A stretch of 64,000 nucleotides of DNA from Okibacterium sp. HSC-33S16 (GCF_024171565.1 NZ_JALJZZ010000007.1:124001-188000); one strand, 5' to 3'. Counted from the stretch's first letter, positions 16,506 through 30,402 are shown. A program made the numbers and translations. The notes: a model not told the origin generated them from the sequence alone.

Positions 16506-17885
16506 ATGACCACCGTCGATCCATCTCCCATTCACCCTGACGCTGTCGCCGACCTCAAGCAATCACTCGCCGGCTCCGTAGTTCTTCCCGGCGATCCCGA
16601 GTACGAGTCTGCGGCGACCGTTTACGGCACCGTCTACGGCGCCACAGCCGCACCCGCTCTCGTGGCACAGGTCTCCGACGCTGACGACGTTGGAGTGGCC
16701 GTCGCGTTTGCTCGATCACACGGGCTGGAACTCTCCGTCCGCAGTGGTGGACACAGCGGCAGCGGTTTCAGCACGAACGTCGGTGGAGTAGTCATCGATC
16801 TGCGTCGACTGAACAGCGTTGAGATCATTGACCCGGTCCGTCGACTCGTCCGAATCGGGGCAGGGGCCACCTGGGGCCAGGTCGCCGCCACATTGGACGG
16901 TTCCGGGCTTGCTCTGTCCTCCGGCGACACGACGTCCGTCGGGGTGGGCGGGCTCAGCCTTGGTGGCGGCATCGGTTGGATGGTGCGCACGTGCGGCCTC
17001 GCTCTCGACAGCGTGGTGGAAGCAACGATCGTCACGGCAGGAAGCGAGGTGCTTCGGGTCAGCGCAGACGAACACCCGGAGCTGTTCTGGGCGATCCGTG
17101 GTGGAGGGGGCAACTTCGGGGTTGTGACAAGCTTCACCTTCCACGCGCGCTCACTGTCACGCGTTTTCTCCGGAACACTGCAGTTCGGCGATGCAGACCT
17201 CGCCGAACTGCTGGCCGGCTGGCGTGATGTGATGCGAGCAGCGCCCGATGAGCTCAACACCACGTTCCTGGCCATGCCCGCGTTTCCGGGCATGCCCGGT
17301 GGCGTACAGGTCCTGGTGTGCTTCGCCGGGGACGATGCTGTCGCAGCTGAGGCCGCTCTTGCTCCTCTCCGTGACCTGCCCGGGCTCACGAGCGATGACG
17401 TTGCGGCTCACCCTTACGTCGACCTCCTCGAGGAGGCCCACCCGCCCGAGGGCATGACGATCATCGGGCACAACGCCTTCGCTCGAGAACTGACCGATGA
17501 AGCTTTGGGCGACCTCGCGTCGATGTACGCCGAGTTGGGCGGCTCGGTCCTCATGATTCGCAGTTTGGGAGGCGCCTTTAGCCGGGTGCCGAACGACGCA
17601 ACGGCCTTTGGCTTCCGGGACAGCGAAGCTCTGATCATCTCGGTGGCGTTCCTCCCACCAGACGGACCGGCCGAGGCTGGCTCACGCGTGCGTGACCTCT
17701 GGCAACACGTCTCCCCTCATCTGCAGGGCACGTACGCCGGCTTCTCCAGCGCGCCGGGTGGTGAGGAGCCAGCACTCCTTTACTCGCCTGACACTCTGTC
17801 GCGACTCATGAGCCTCAAGCGCACGTACGATCCGGAGAACCTGTTTCGGCGCAACCACAACATCCCGCCCGACCTGGCGCGCTAG
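16506..17885 (+). CDS. FAD-binding oxidoreductase, berberine-bridge-enzyme type
   Basis: A 459-residue flavin oxidase/dehydrogenase. The PCMH-type FAD domain spans about residues 40-215. RSGGHS at 79-84 puts the His that covalently links FAD at 83. The position that holds a second, Cys link in bicovalent members (just before VGVGGLSLGGGIG) is Thr/Ser, so single covalent attachment is expected. The BBE C-terminal segment ends with YDPENLFRRNHNI. Relatives oxidize sugars, alkaloids or polyketides, and the substrate here cannot be read. It is convergent with an MFS gene (20-base gap). A second BBE domain occurs in the fusion protein at 25584. Confidence 0.88.
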   Translation: MTTVDPSPIHPDAVADLKQSLAGSVVLPGDPEYESAATVYGTVYGATAAPALVAQVSDADDVGVAVAFARSHGLELSVRSGGHSGSGFSTNVGGVVIDLRRLNSVEIIDPVRRLVRIGAGATWGQVAATLDGSGLALSSGDTTSVGVGGLSLGGGIGWMVRTCGLALDSVVEATIVTAGSEVLRVSADEHPELFWAIRGGGGNFGVVTSFTFHARSLSRVFSGTLQFGDADLAELLAGWRDVMRAAPDELNTTFLAMPAFPGMPGGVQVLVCFAGDDAVAAEAALAPLRDLPGLTSDDVAAHPYVDLLEEAHPPEGMTIIGHNAFARELTDEALGDLASMYAELGGSVLMIRSLGGAFSRVPNDATAFGFRDSEALIISVAFLPPDGPAEAGSRVRDLWQHVSPHLQGTYAGFSSAPGGEEPALLYSPDTLSRLMSLKRTYDPENLFRRNHNIPPDLAR

Positions 17886-25117: not shown

Positions 25118-25474
25118 TCAGGCGCTCTGCGCCTTCGGCGCGCGGTCCGCCCGCTCCCGGCTCCAGAGAACGAGCGGGCGCATGAGGGCAATCAGGCGCC
25201 TGCCGTCATCAGTCGGGGTGTAGCTGATCGTCACGGGCGTCGTCGGTGTCACGTCCCGCCCGATCAACCCGTCGGCTTCAAGTTCGCGCAGACGGGCGGC
25301 GAGCAGGCGGTCTGAGATTCCGTCCACGCTGTCCCGGTACTCCGAGAAACGACGCGCGCCCCTGGCTCCGGCGAGGAGGATTGCCGCGTTCCACTTGCGC
25401 CCGGCAAGCTCGACCGCGGCCTGGAATTGACGACACTCGTCGTCATTGATGTGTTCGAAGCTCGTTCCGCGCAT
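25118..25474 (-). CDS. HxlR/DUF24 family transcriptional regulator
   Basis: A 118-residue winged-helix regulator. The family core is present: GRKWNAAIL, then RRFSEYRDSVDGISDRLLAARLREL, split here as two motifs, then the wing YTPTDDGRRL. Cys14 sits where MarR/DUF24 sensors such as YodB, CatR and HypR have their redox- or quinone-reactive Cys. A perfect inverted repeat lies 9 bases upstream of its start, in the gap shared with the divergent flavoenzyme operon. It therefore probably regulates itself and the two LLM genes in response to an electrophile or oxidant; this is inference. Confidence 0.87.
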   Translation of the reverse strand: MRGTSFEHINDDECRQFQAAVELAGRKWNAAILLAGARGARRFSEYRDSVDGISDRLLAARLRELEADGLIGRDVTPTTPVTISYTPTDDGRRLIALMRPLVLWSRERADRAPKAQSA

Positions 25475-25482
25475 TCGTCCTC

Positions 25483-25499
25483 ACTAACTTTCAGTTAGT
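25483..25499. promoter_or_regulatory. Inverted repeat, likely HxlR operator
   Basis: ACTAACT-TTC-AGTTAGT is a perfect 7+3+7 inverted repeat in the 109-base gap between the HxlR gene and the divergent LLM-BBE fusion gene. It lies next to the HxlR start and far enough from the fusion start to overlap its promoter. DUF24-type regulators bind sites of this size and AT-rich composition. Confidence 0.75.
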
Positions 25500-25583
25500 A
25501 GCTTACGCCTCGTTGGTGGACTCGGCAAATATCGACCACACTGAGGACATGCATGCCCACTCCATCGTCGTCGGCCCGGCATC

Positions 25584-27827
25584 GTGAGCCCCACCCGTAA
25601 GGTGACCTTCGGGCTGGCGCTCACACCGTCCGCCACTCATCCCGAGCACACCATTGCCCAGGCGCAACTCGGCGAGCGCAGCGGGTTTGACCTCGTCACC
25701 CTGCTCCGCGCCCCTGGGCAGGTGGTTGACGGGTGGACACTCCTGTCCTGGATTGCTGGAAGCACCGAGCGCATTGGTCTCCTCGGCCAGCTCGCCTGCC
25801 TTCCTTCCGAGATGCCCACGGTAACCGCGGGTGCCGCCGCGAGCCTCGACCTGCTCTCGCAGGGGCGGCTCACCCTGGCCATCACGAGCGACGAACCGTC
25901 AGACGACAACCAGCATCCCGTCGAAGGTGTGGAGGAGACCCTCGACATCATCCGCCGGATGTGGGCGATTGGCGAGCCAGGAACCGTGCGGTACACCGGA
26001 AACGTCCACCGCGTCGACGGTGCCCAGCGCGGACCGGCACCGGCGCACGACGTTCCGCTCCTCATTACTGGCGACAGTCCCGAGCTTCTTCGCCTGGCCG
26101 GCGAAAAGTCCGACGGCTGGCTCTCGGAGATCAACGGCTCATCACTCGACAGGTTCATCGCGGGAAGCACCTTGATCGGCCACACGGCCGTCGCCAACGG
26201 GCGCGACCCGCGCGAAGTGCCGAAGATCGTGACGATCCGTGGGACGTTCGCCGACACGCGGGGCGGTTTCCTTCACGGCCGAAGTGCCGACTGGGTCGAC
26301 GACCTGCTTCCGCTCATCGTGGATCACGGCGTCACAACGCTCCTTCTCGCCACCGAGGAGAACGCCGTCCTCCAGCAGTTTGCCGAGGAGGTCGCTCCTC
26401 GGCTCCGTGACGCTGCATCTTCGCTGTTACCGGCCCAGACACGAACCGGCCGCCTGCGAAAGTCGACGGCGATCGCCCAACGGCGCAGCGGCATCCGTTA
26501 TGACGACGTTCCTGACCTTCTGGTTGACTCCGCGATTGAGCCCGGGGATTTCGATTTTCCCCGGGTCAAGTCGACGTATCTGCGCGGCGGCTCGCCCGGC
26601 CTCGTTCTGCGGACGCGTACGGTCGACGAGGTCGTTGCCGCGCTCGGCTTTGCCCGCGAACACCCCCACCTTCCGCTCTCGATCCGGAGCGGAGGGCACG
26701 GCATCAGCGGCCGGTCAACCAATGACGGCGGGATCGTGATCAACCTCAGCCTCATGAATCGCATCGACGTGCTCGACGAAGCCACCCGACGGGTACGCAT
26801 TGAGCCGGGAGCGCGATGGATGGACGTTGCTGCCGCACTACAACCGTACGGCTGGGCACTGACGTCAGGTGACTATGGCGGCGTGGGCGTCGGCGGCCTC
26901 GCCACCGCCGGAGGTATCGGCTTCCTGGGCCGAGGGCACGGCCTCACCATTGACCACCTGCGTGCGGTCGACATGGTGCTCGCCGACGGATCCCGGGTAC
27001 GCGCGAGCGACACCGAGAATACTGAGCTGTTCTGGGCAGTGCGCGGTGCCGGCGCGAACTTCGGCATCGTCACCGCCTTCGAATTCGAAGTCGACGAGGT
27101 GGGCGACGTCGGGTGGGCACAACTGGGTCTCGACGCCACAGACACCGCGGAATTCCTCGAGAAGTGGGGCCACACGAGCGAAGCAGCGCCCCGCGACACC
27201 ACGAGCTTCCTGATCATGGGACCGCCGCGTCACGGTCAACCCGCCCTCGCGCAGCTGATGGCCATGGTCGACTCAGCGAACCCCGACACCATCATCGAGC
27301 GGCTCCAGCCGTTCGCGAACATCTCGCCGCTGTACAGCCAATCCGTGCAGCTGATGCCGTACGCCGCAGTAATGGCCAACGCACAGGGCGAGTCGAACGG
27401 TGGCCAGGGCGAACCGGTCACCCGCAGCGGGCTGCTCGATCACATCACTCCCGAGTTCGCGGCTGCCGCTGCACGCCTGATCTCGAGCGGCACTGTGTAT
27501 TTCTTCCAGATTCGAGCGGTCGGTGGCGCTATTTCCGATATCGATGCGGATGCCACAGCGTACGCACATCGGTCGGCGAACTTTTCCGTTGTGGCGTTCG
27601 GTTCACACCGCCAGCGCCTCGACGCCGCGTGGGAGGAGCTCTATCCGTTCTTCACCGGTGCGTACCTGAGTTTTGAGACCGATCCTCGACCCGAGCGACT
27701 CACCGACGCGTTCCCGCCGGCGACCCTGGCCCGATTGCGCGAGGTGAAGGCGCGGCTTGACCCGGATTCGGTCTTCCGCGACAACTTCCCGATCTCCATC
27801 CCGACGCTCACGGAGGCGACCTCATGA
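25584..27827 (+). CDS. LLM (luciferase-like) domain fused to BBE-type FAD oxidoreductase
   Basis: A 747-residue fusion. Residues about 6-275 are a luciferase-like monooxygenase domain (DGWTLLSWIAGSTERIGL, AASLDLLSQGR, HRVDGAQRGPAPAHD). Residues about 310-747 are a complete PCMH/BBE flavo-oxidase: RSGGHG at 368-373 with the covalent-FAD His at 372, VGVGGLATAGGIGF, ELFWAVRGAGANFGIVTAF and the C-terminal DPDSVFRDNFPI. In the LLM part the glycine-rich cofactor loop is replaced by TLAITSDEPSDD (residues 97-108), so that half may not bind flavin or F420. The start is GTG at 25584. The next gene, a single LLM enzyme, overlaps by ATGA. Regulation by the divergent HxlR is likely. The substrate is unknown. 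Confidence 0.88.
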   Translation: MSPTRKVTFGLALTPSATHPEHTIAQAQLGERSGFDLVTLLRAPGQVVDGWTLLSWIAGSTERIGLLGQLACLPSEMPTVTAGAAASLDLLSQGRLTLAITSDEPSDDNQHPVEGVEETLDIIRRMWAIGEPGTVRYTGNVHRVDGAQRGPAPAHDVPLLITGDSPELLRLAGEKSDGWLSEINGSSLDRFIAGSTLIGHTAVANGRDPREVPKIVTIRGTFADTRGGFLHGRSADWVDDLLPLIVDHGVTTLLLATEENAVLQQFAEEVAPRLRDAASSLLPAQTRTGRLRKSTAIAQRRSGIRYDDVPDLLVDSAIEPGDFDFPRVKSTYLRGGSPGLVLRTRTVDEVVAALGFAREHPHLPLSIRSGGHGISGRSTNDGGIVINLSLMNRIDVLDEATRRVRIEPGARWMDVAAALQPYGWALTSGDYGGVGVGGLATAGGIGFLGRGHGLTIDHLRAVDMVLADGSRVRASDTENTELFWAVRGAGANFGIVTAFEFEVDEVGDVGWAQLGLDATDTAEFLEKWGHTSEAAPRDTTSFLIMGPPRHGQPALAQLMAMVDSANPDTIIERLQPFANISPLYSQSVQLMPYAAVMANAQGESNGGQGEPVTRSGLLDHITPEFAAAAARLISSGTVYFFQIRAVGGAISDIDADATAYAHRSANFSVVAFGSHRQRLDAAWEELYPFFTGAYLSFETDPRPERLTDAFPPATLARLREVKARLDPDSVFRDNFPISIPTLTEATS

Positions 27828-28717
27828 TCGACTACGGACACGACCTGCTATTCGGCGCATTCATCACGCCCACGAACAGTCCGCCGATGCACGCCGTCGA
27901 TATGGCGATCGCCGCCGACCGCGCCGGGCTCGACCTGGCAACGTTTCAGGACCATCCCTACCAACCGTCATTTCACGACACCTGGACCCTCCTGTCATAC
28001 GCCGCGGCTCGAACCGAGCGCATCCGCCTGAGCGGCAACGTGCTCAACCTCCCCCTGCGTGACCCAGCGGTCCTTGCCCGGAGCGCCGCAAGTCTCGACC
28101 TGCTCAGCGGTGGGCGATTCGAGCTCGGCATCGGCGCCGGTGGCTTCTGGGACGCGATCGAAGCCATGGGCGGCAGGCGGCTCACACCCGGCCAGTCGAT
28201 CGAAGCTCTCGAAGAAGCGATCCGGATCTTCCGCGGAATCTGGGCGACGGATGCCACGGGGCGGCTGGTCGTGGACGGTTCCTTTTATCGCGTGAACGGC
28301 GCGAAACGCGGACCGAAGCCCGCGCATGACATTGGCGTGTGGGTTGGCGCGTACAAACCGCGGATCCTGCGAATGACCGGCCGTGCGGCCGATGGCTGGC
28401 TGCCTTCTCTGGCCTACCTGCCCGGTGGGCCGCGGGACCTGACGGCGATGAACGCGCACATCGATGAGGGAGCAACCCGTGCCGGCCGGGATCCTCGATC
28501 GATCCGGCGCCTGCTCAATATCTCCGGGCAGTTCTCGGCGACCGGGCGGGGGCTGCTCGTCGGTCCGCCCGAGCAATGGGTGGACCAGCTCACCGGCATC
28601 GCACTCGAGTACGGCATCTCGGGCTTCATTGTGACCGCAGACGATGAGGCGACGATTCAGTTGTTTGCCGAGGTGGCCGCCGGCGTCCGTCGACAGGTCG
28701 CGGCCGAGCGCGGCTGA
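27824..28717 (+). CDS. LLM class flavin/F420-dependent oxidoreductase
   Basis: A 297-residue TIM-barrel enzyme of the bacterial luciferase-like superfamily, using FMNH2 or F420H2. The cofactor loop ELGIGAGGFWDAIEAMGG is intact near residues 100-117. It shares many motifs with the N-terminal half of the preceding fusion protein: DTWTLLSYAAARTERIRL, AASLDLLSGGR, YRVNGAKRGPKPAHD and QWVDQL. This points to a tandem duplication. Its ATG overlaps the fusion stop (ATGA), so the two are cotranslated and may form a heteromer. It is convergent with a TetR gene 18 bases away. Confidence 0.89.
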   Translation: MIDYGHDLLFGAFITPTNSPPMHAVDMAIAADRAGLDLATFQDHPYQPSFHDTWTLLSYAAARTERIRLSGNVLNLPLRDPAVLARSAASLDLLSGGRFELGIGAGGFWDAIEAMGGRRLTPGQSIEALEEAIRIFRGIWATDATGRLVVDGSFYRVNGAKRGPKPAHDIGVWVGAYKPRILRMTGRAADGWLPSLAYLPGGPRDLTAMNAHIDEGATRAGRDPRSIRRLLNISGQFSATGRGLLVGPPEQWVDQLTGIALEYGISGFIVTADDEATIQLFAEVAAGVRRQVAAERG

Positions 28718-28735: not shown

Positions 28736-29293
28736 TCAGTTCGCGCTGAAGGCACGTGCGAAGAGCGCGACCGCTCGTTCACCGACGGCGACTCGCTCAT
28801 CGGCGTCAGTTCGCGCCAGGACCCCGGCGAGCATCGACACGGCAAGCAAGACGTCATCGACTGTGACATGGGTGCCGATCGCACCTGCCGCTCGTTCCCG
28901 CTCAACCTCGCGCGCGACCATCCCGGCGAGCCGGTCACCCAGGTGGACGACGCGCTCGTCATGGGAGTGTGCCCAGATCAGATCGATGAGTGCTGTCGCG
29001 ACGACCGCCTGGTCAATCACCCGCTCCAAGAGGTCAGCCATTGAGCTGTCCGGCCGGTCGATGAACTCCTCAAGCTGAGTGAGGTTCTCGTCGAACACCG
29101 CGACCGCCAGCGATGTCCGGTCGGGGAAGTGCCGATAGAGACTTCCCTGGCCGACTCCCGCGCGCCGGGCAACGGCACTGAGCGGGGCGGACAGCCCTTC
29201 AGCCGTGAACACCTCGCGTGCGGCGGCGATGAGCGCCCGTCGATTCTCGGGTCCAGCACTGGGACCACGATTTGCTTTCGACGTCGGTGACAC
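28736..29293 (-). CDS. TetR family transcriptional regulator
   Basis: A 185-residue repressor. The HTH lies at about residues 18-62, with ALIAAAREVFTAEGLSA, then the recognition helix RAGVGQGSLYRHFPDRTSL. The C-terminal domain resembles SACE_7040-type TetR proteins. It diverges from the SDR gene, and an inverted repeat with 9-bp arms fills the shared promoter at 29307-29328, so the SDR is the expected target. Confidence 0.9.
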   Translation of the reverse strand: MSPTSKANRGPSAGPENRRALIAAAREVFTAEGLSAPLSAVARRAGVGQGSLYRHFPDRTSLAVAVFDENLTQLEEFIDRPDSSMADLLERVIDQAVVATALIDLIWAHSHDERVVHLGDRLAGMVAREVERERAAGAIGTHVTVDDVLLAVSMLAGVLARTDADERVAVGERAVALFARAFSAN

Positions 29294-29328: not shown

Positions 29329-29352
29329 TTGCGCAGAGAAGAAAGAGAACCC

Positions 29353-30402
29353 ATGACCACACCACTTACCGCCGACTCCACCATCGGCACCTGGATCGAC
29401 CACCCCGTCGGAGGAGCGGTCCTCGGCCAGATGCTCTCGGCAGGAGGGCAGACGCCTGACGCCCTCCGCCCGGTCAGCGCTTTGCCGCTCAAGCAGCTCG
29501 TCAAGCTCAGCCAGGGCGCCTTCAGCGAGGAAATGCTCGATGGCCTGGTTGCACGAGTCGCTGCCGACCCCGCCTCACAGTCCGACTCTGATGACGCTGA
29601 CGCTGACGCTCAGTCCCCTGAAGCTCCGGTTGTTCGCCCCGAGTGGGTCGAACGCATCAGCACCGGCCGCTTCACCGGAAAGACGGTCATCGTGACCGGC
29701 GCCGGCTCGGGCATCGGCCGCGCGACCGCGTCTCGGGTCGCCCGCGAAGGCGGACGGGTCGTCGCTGTTGACATTTCGAGTGAGCGCCTCAGCGAGTTCG
29801 CCGCCGAACTGCCCGACGCCGACATCGTGACCGTCGTCGCCGACATCACCGATGACGCCGCCATTGCGGCCATCGTCGAAGCATCAGGTGACACTATTGA
29901 CGCTCTCGCGAACGTTGCCGGGATCATGGACGACATGACACCGGTCCACGAGATCTCCGACTCGGTATGGAAGCGCGTCTTCGCGATCAACGTCGACGGC
30001 ACCATGAAACTCATGCGCGCTGTCGTTCCATCCATGCTCGCGCGAGGCGTTGGCTCTATCGTCAACGTCGCTTCCGAAGCCGGCCTCCGCGGTTCGGCCG
30101 CTGGTGCCGCATACACCGCGTCAAAGCACGCTGTGATCGGGCTCACCAAGTCGAGCGCATTCATGTACGGTCCCAGCGGCCTCCGTGTGAATGCTGTCGC
30201 CCCGGGCGCCGTCATCACCAACATCCAGGCGACGTTCGCTTCCCCGCTCGGAGCCGGCCGTGTACAGACTGCGATGGCCATCATGCCGACCCCGGTTGAA
30301 GGCGACGCACTCGCCGCGTCCATTTCCTTCCTCCTCAGCGACGACGGCGTGAACGTCAACGGTGTGGTCCTGGCCAGCGATGGTGGTTGGTCAGCAGCGT
30401 AA
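29353..30402 (+). CDS. Short-chain dehydrogenase with extra N-terminal domain
   Basis: A 349-residue SDR. Residues about 105-349 are a classical SDR: TGAGSGIG (NAD(P) binding), NVAG, catalytic Ser in NVASEAG, YTASK (Tyr and Lys) and the VAPGAV segment. The first 70 residues (TIGTWIDHPVGGAVLGQML, then LPLKQLVKLSQGAFSEEMLDGLV) form a helical domain that I have seen appended to other actinobacterial enzymes, followed by an acidic Asp/Ser linker. ATG at 29353 is preferred over a TTG at 29329 because AGAAAGAGAACC lies just upstream. Divergent TetR control is likely. The substrate is unknown. Confidence 0.88.
   Translation: MTTPLTADSTIGTWIDHPVGGAVLGQMLSAGGQTPDALRPVSALPLKQLVKLSQGAFSEEMLDGLVARVAADPASQSDSDDADADAQSPEAPVVRPEWVERISTGRFTGKTVIVTGAGSGIGRATASRVAREGGRVVAVDISSERLSEFAAELPDADIVTVVADITDDAAIAAIVEASGDTIDALANVAGIMDDMTPVHEISDSVWKRVFAINVDGTMKLMRAVVPSMLARGVGSIVNVASEAGLRGSAAGAAYTASKHAVIGLTKSSAFMYGPSGLRVNAVAPGAVITNIQATFASPLGAGRVQTAMAIMPTPVEGDALAASISFLLSDDGVNVNGVVLASDGGWSAA

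Follow-up and report, generated by a model that had tools for sequence, protein, structure and literature searches.

Is a protein that joins a luciferase-like (LLM) domain to a flavin oxidase a catalyst of two reactions, or has one of its halves taken up another role? The question is raised by an operon in the window, by which we mean the whole stretch of 64,000 nucleotides of Okibacterium sp. HSC-33S16 DNA analysed here. According to the original prediction, the fusion would let two flavin reactions run in series on one substrate.

The fusion gene and its relatives

The fusion gene (25584-27827, plus strand, GTG start) is one uninterrupted frame, with zero stops across 747 aa. Its N-terminal part is a degenerate LLM domain (residues 17-226, at 25632-26261, plus strand), which Pfam assigns to Bac_luciferase at 6.9e-28, with 98 bits against a cut-off of 27.9, so that it belongs to the barrel family. 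Residues ~320-747 (26541-27824, plus strand) form an EncM-like oxidase half of the BBE/VAO type, with FAD_binding_4 at residues 339-474 (3.7e-29) and BBE at residues 714-737 (1.7e-4), the latter a weak signature because its 22.0 bits lie barely above the cut-off of 20.6. AlphaFold2 (44 sequences) models the whole fusion as two confident domains (pLDDT 87.7, pTM 0.85), and the predicted barrel has a confident alpha/beta fold despite its erosion. In a fold search the modelled oxidase half matches EncM across the full oxidase fold (TM 0.83 by target length), followed by McrA, oligosaccharide oxidases and BBE itself; since this match covers the full fold, we regard the oxidase as complete. Frame, Pfam domains and fold match together bear out the first part of the original prediction, namely that an LLM domain and a complete BBE-type oxidase share one chain. 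Ahead of the gene there is a possible upstream reading frame of 12 codons (25553-25588, plus strand, ATG at 25553), the TGA stop of which overlaps the GTG start of the fusion (GTGA); no clear ribosome site was seen ahead of that GTG.

It could be objected that a frameshift or an assembly error merged two genes here. Nothing found at the window speaks in favour of this; a frameshifted relative (L088) shows that such errors or decay do occur, but the same junction is encoded by about 100 genomes, and we see next to no chance that the objection is right. No stop interrupts the best homologues, which can be aligned along their whole length; from this we conclude that the fusion is biological, and a merger or frameshift at the junction is ruled out by them. 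Frame changes interrupt the fusion copies of L088 (genome G013) and L087 (genome G189), which are broken or badly sequenced. In a genome of the same family, Microbacteriaceae (L051), the oxidase half is identical to that of Leifsonia flava (L013).

Full-length homologues are found in ~100 genomes, mostly of Actinomycetota, and also of Chloroflexota and Thermomicrobiota, with one on a contig binned as Bacteroidota. Among 199 relatives, about 36 carry full or nearly full-length homologues of 45-73% identity. In an even draw of 395 genomes from the same class, 56 match the fusion at E <= 1e-150, a few of these matches being partial. When 44 aligned homologues were searched with Pfam, Bac_luciferase was recognised in 43, FAD_binding_4 in 44 and BBE in 39. 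The idea that homologues might always be encoded as two separate proteins therefore fails: separate neighbouring LLM and BBE genes are clearly seen only in L014 and L089, and these split neighbours tie the two activities together. The claim that the system is new stands in one respect, as no paper describing an LLM-BBE fusion was found in the literature searched, and falls in another, as the architecture is common in actinobacterial genomes.

The regulator and the two catalysts

An HxlR/DUF24-type winged-helix regulator of 118 aa (25118-25474, minus strand; Pfam HxlR 1.8e-20, 73 bits against a cut-off of 20.8), with a single, N-terminal cysteine (Cys14), diverges from the fusion. Between them lies an operator-like palindrome, CTCACTAACTTTCAGTTAGTAGC (25480-25502), immediately ahead of the HxlR start codon and some 80 bp before the start of the fusion, and inside it the perfect 7+3+7 repeat ACTAACT-TTC-AGTTAGT (25483-25499); divergence, repeat and Cys14 are all as first described. 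By comparing upstream regions we found a conserved palindrome, GTCACTTAC-N5-GTAAGTGAC, of which the window site is the best match within 19 kb, as a divergent variant with 5/18 mismatches. This palindrome precedes the enzyme gene in 35 of 36 divergent-HxlR loci against 1 of 75 others, a site being counted when the best match of the whole stretch lay just upstream of the enzyme gene; the consensus was drawn from some of the same loci, and the control is the contrast with loci lacking HxlR. Because related loci have a conserved palindrome at this position, of which the window repeat is a variant, the repeat is more than a chance occurrence, and the proposed control of the fusion operon by HxlR, via this predicted operator, is in our opinion well supported.

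Divergent HxlR adjoins the fusion in 36 loci, and the N-terminal Cys is present in all listed HxlR proteins but one. The window regulator shares its family (MarR/DUF24) and the N-terminal Cys with HypR, YodB, CatR and HxlR, and differs from them in having its own palindrome. In HypR, YodB and CatR such a Cys serves to sense HOCl, quinones and diamide (PMC6943732). In the gene clustering around fusion loci the recurrent partners are HxlR-like (28 loci) or MarR-like (8) regulators, and no other widely recurrent neighbour that would point to a pathway was seen. A dedicated local regulator together with the lack of another widely conserved neighbour weakly suggests that this is an inducible unit for catabolism or detoxification and not one step within a large biosynthetic cluster. 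At loci without HxlR a MarR-type regulator often adjoins the fusion (L004, L006, L008, L051, L053 and others), which amounts to a regulator swap. The window operon is also adjoined by a divergent pair of TetR (28736-29293, minus strand) and short-chain dehydrogenase (29329-30402, plus strand) genes, the SDR-like protein having an N-terminal extension of ~100 aa; the pair flanks the other side of the fusion in two Herbiconiux loci (L015 and L016, 65-69%) and is found at 76-80% in a sister genome (L050).

The oxidase half shows no decay in the family, unlike the fused LLM. Its covalent-linkage (8-alpha) position, His372 (26697-26699), both oxygen gatekeepers, Gly429 (26868-26870) and Val434 (26883-26885), all encoded on the plus strand, and also Asp430 are conserved in 108 of 108 sequences, and in the same 108 position 431 is occupied by Tyr (86), His, Phe or Ser and in no case by Cys. 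In BBE-like enzymes Gly and Val at the two gatekeeper positions open an oxygen pocket, and a Cys two residues past the first gatekeeper forms a second flavin bond (PMC4898691). The protein thus has the FAD_binding_4 (PCMH) fold, the His linkage site and the oxidase-type gatekeepers of the BBE-like/VAO class, while the second (6-S-Cys) link, usual in most BBE-like members, is absent. This does not exclude membership, since mono-covalent members are known (PMC4898691). A bi-covalent flavin was considered and rejected for want of a Cys at position 431. From Gly429, Val434 and the missing Cys431 together we predict that the BBE half is a mono-covalent, O2-using FAD oxidase.

EncM, the enterocin FAD enzyme (PDB 3W8W, 4XLO), is the best match of this half in sequence (5e-56) as well as in fold, and has the same BBE/VAO fold and mono-covalent His position. 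It differs from the fusion in having no LLM domain, in using a flavin-N5-oxide, and in having Thr139 at the oxygen-pocket position where the fusion family has Val (Val434) in 108 of 108; EncM-type N5-oxide chemistry was rejected on account of this aligned Val. The T139V variant of EncM showed oxidase activity (PMC7662398). McrA, the mitomycin radical oxidase (PDB 9R43), belongs to the same fold class (TM 0.84 by target length) and, unlike the fusion oxidase, has no LLM partner. Two further EncM-like BBE oxidases lie on this contig, one unfused in the window (16506-17885, plus strand, sharing 37% identity with the fusion's oxidase half) and one outside it (G000:C7:44222-45433).

The second enzyme gene (27824-28717, plus strand) encodes a stand-alone LLM flavin oxidoreductase of 297 aa (Bac_luciferase 9.3e-50, 170 bits), and its start overlaps the fusion stop by 4 bases (ATGA), exactly as had been claimed. 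The protein has an intact Asp43-His44 (motif FQDHPYQP) and keeps 60 of 60 family-conserved residues, hence a barrel with an intact flavin site. The N-terminal LLM domains of most homologues are mostly 54-64% identical to this stand-alone enzyme, and only 35-44% identical to the window's own fused LLM. A recent local duplication was rejected as its source: most stand-alone copies form a clade of their own, common to Actinobacteria and Chloroflexota.

Which cofactor would the LLM use? The closest named relatives of both window LLM domains are F420-dependent enzymes (Fgd1, Mer and the Rv2161c group, TIGR03619), and His44 of the stand-alone enzyme aligns with His40 of Fgd1, where His40, Ser73, Val74 and Glu109 contribute to cofactor binding (PMC3859598). 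The window domains differ from this group in scoring 129 and 83 bits against the TIGR03619 cut-off of 167. Further, cofH/FbiC was not found in the own genome, nor in 28 of 40 fusion genomes (own included), and CofD had no match in the own genome, which is weak as a lone search. F420-dependent chemistry was rejected on the TIGR03619 scores and the cofH/FbiC result; the latter makes FMN the most likely cofactor of the LLM as judged from the genomes.

Erosion of the fused barrel

In the fused LLM of the window the active-site Asp-His is replaced by Arg42-Ala43 (Ala43 codon, 25710-25712); in the numbering of the stand-alone enzyme the changes are D43R, H44A, N72Q and V73L, and the 105-123 loop is lost. 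The intact flavin site, with its Asp-His motif, N-V pair and beta4 loop, is thus missing. Among 62 intact domains, 73 positions are conserved in 95% or more; the fused LLM retains 48 of these, against 68-73 in intact fusions. Of the 60 family-conserved residues it retains 37 (23 lost), against 55-60, and it is around the flavin site that the losses concentrate. Both the active-site His and the loops that contact the cofactor are kept by 82 intact fusions and by stand-alone relatives.

One may argue that both domains of the window protein are nevertheless active, and that two serial flavin reactions occur on one substrate in one chain. Both are indeed recognised by Pfam and fold confidently, and both halves keep their conserved residues in the 82 canonical fusions. 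Yet in the window domain the His is gone, as are the 105-123 loop and the N-V pair that contacts the flavin, and the stand-alone enzyme keeps every conserved residue; given the loss of Asp-His, of flavin-contacting loops and of 23 of 60 conserved residues, we find this reading very improbable, and the serial scheme of the original prediction is not supported for the window protein. Judged by its residues, the intact LLM catalyst at this locus is the product of the neighbouring gene. For the canonical fusions of other bacteria the two-reaction idea is possible.

When the window is compared with its nearest relative, the fused LLM has a dN of 0.367, which is 3.4 times that of the BBE half (0.107); the stand-alone LLM has a dN of 0.113. 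The dN/dS of the fused LLM, 0.245, is a rough ratio with synonymous sites near saturation, and implies a domain that is still constrained: relaxed, not free.

To place the window among its relatives, 105 fusion loci were classified, in a sample that includes 95 stretches from other genomes, and a stand-alone LLM was sought within each locus stretch, a few kb either side and less at contig ends. Within that range no stand-alone LLM was found for 75 fusions, all of which are intact. The fused LLM is eroded in 23 loci, and every one of these has an intact stand-alone LLM nearby in the same orientation; the two genes are adjacent everywhere except in L186 (1.2 kb away), and the 4-base overlap recurs in many of these loci. 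At seven loci both copies are intact (L157 = G764, L004, L005, L009, L059, L060, L062), from which it follows that a second LLM copy does not force loss; these seven are candidate pre-erosion intermediates. The association of erosion with a stand-alone copy has a Fisher p of 2e-17 with kinship ignored. On the oxidase-half tree there are 7 losses on the best tree, and strongly supported branches force at least 4; an independent-pairs test on the tree had too few pairs for a significant result.

The erosion is graded, from a full barrel through trimmed forms (about 700 aa) to a half barrel (about 650 aa). In the four extreme cases, L196-L199, the barrel is reduced to its first half, with alpha2/alpha3 still present, and a family profile recognises it at 1e-17 to 1e-25; even the most eroded of the 23 still hold about 200 barrel residues. 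In eroded domains retention peaks in helix alpha3 (0.82) and is poorest in the active-site loops (0.08-0.18), and the combined retention of alpha2 and alpha3, at rank 20 of 290 circular shifts, is only suggestive. No common new motif at the former active site was seen among independently eroded lineages.

What the eroded barrel may do

Dimers are common among LLM enzymes, and in LuxB the family has a homologue of LuxA without catalytic activity. The window resembles LuxA/LuxB in that a catalytic LLM barrel and a non-catalytic homologous barrel are encoded alongside each other; unlike LuxB, the non-catalytic barrel here is fused to a BBE oxidase, and its pairing would be by analogy. With a probability that we put at about 60%, the operon is an oxidase/LLM module switched by HxlR, whose fused barrel survives as a pseudoenzyme with a structural or docking function, most likely by pairing with the stand-alone LLM. 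The helices alpha2/alpha3 are presumably the pairing interface, as in luciferase structures. The MsuD paper describes other interfaces in one LLM enzyme, which counts against this assignment. We put docking forward as a hypothesis, because the statistical support for the two helices is modest.

The main rival to docking is passive decay: the eroded domain would be a mere vestige, decaying after the stand-alone LLM made it redundant, with no role other than not unfolding the oxidase. The graded series down to a half barrel and the raised dN of the fused LLM are what one would expect of it. However, dN/dS is still 0.18-0.25, the barrel folds confidently in the model, about 200 residues are kept even in the worst cases, and the stand-alone gene is always kept close by; we therefore consider passive decay unlikely, though it deserves to be taken seriously. 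Less probable again, in our opinion, is that the fused LLM was re-purposed for a different chemistry or ligand, as a new catalyst or an allosteric sensor. Such a role would agree with the persisting constraint, and with helix alpha3 and several stretches away from the active site having been retained, but independently eroded lineages share no new motif at the old active site and the extreme cases lose half the barrel.

On this model, the following picture can be drawn. The BBE half would carry out a mono-covalent, oxygen-reactive FAD oxidase step and the stand-alone enzyme the LLM step, both on linked steps of one small-molecule conversion, the LLM chemistry having moved out of the fusion in this lineage. 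The dead fused barrel would dock or stabilise the stand-alone LLM, most likely in a LuxB-LuxA-like manner, and so keep both catalysts sitting together; the eroded barrel would be retained because it still pairs with the LLM. HxlR would bind the palindrome and presumably repress in both directions, until a thiol-reactive or electrophilic signal, perhaps acting through Cys14, releases it, and the module would probably degrade or detoxify such a compound. It is possible, further, that this happened repeatedly: that the catalytic domain of a bifunctional enzyme was more than once turned into a dead LuxB-like docking subunit for its own stand-alone paralogue, giving a trans-assembled oxidase-LLM complex and a graded fossil series. 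This wider reading we hold tentatively, at somewhat less than even odds.

LLM-BBE fusions are a widespread and apparently uncharacterised family of flavoenzymes that physically joins covalent-FAD oxidase chemistry to LLM chemistry and comes with a regulated promoter. Annotating every such protein as a bifunctional luciferase-like monooxygenase is wrong for the eroded members. The family is a natural experiment on what becomes of a catalytic domain within a fusion once an intact copy is available in trans: the domain has lost its role independently at least four times, intermediates and half-barrel end points can be seen, and the active partner is next door each time.
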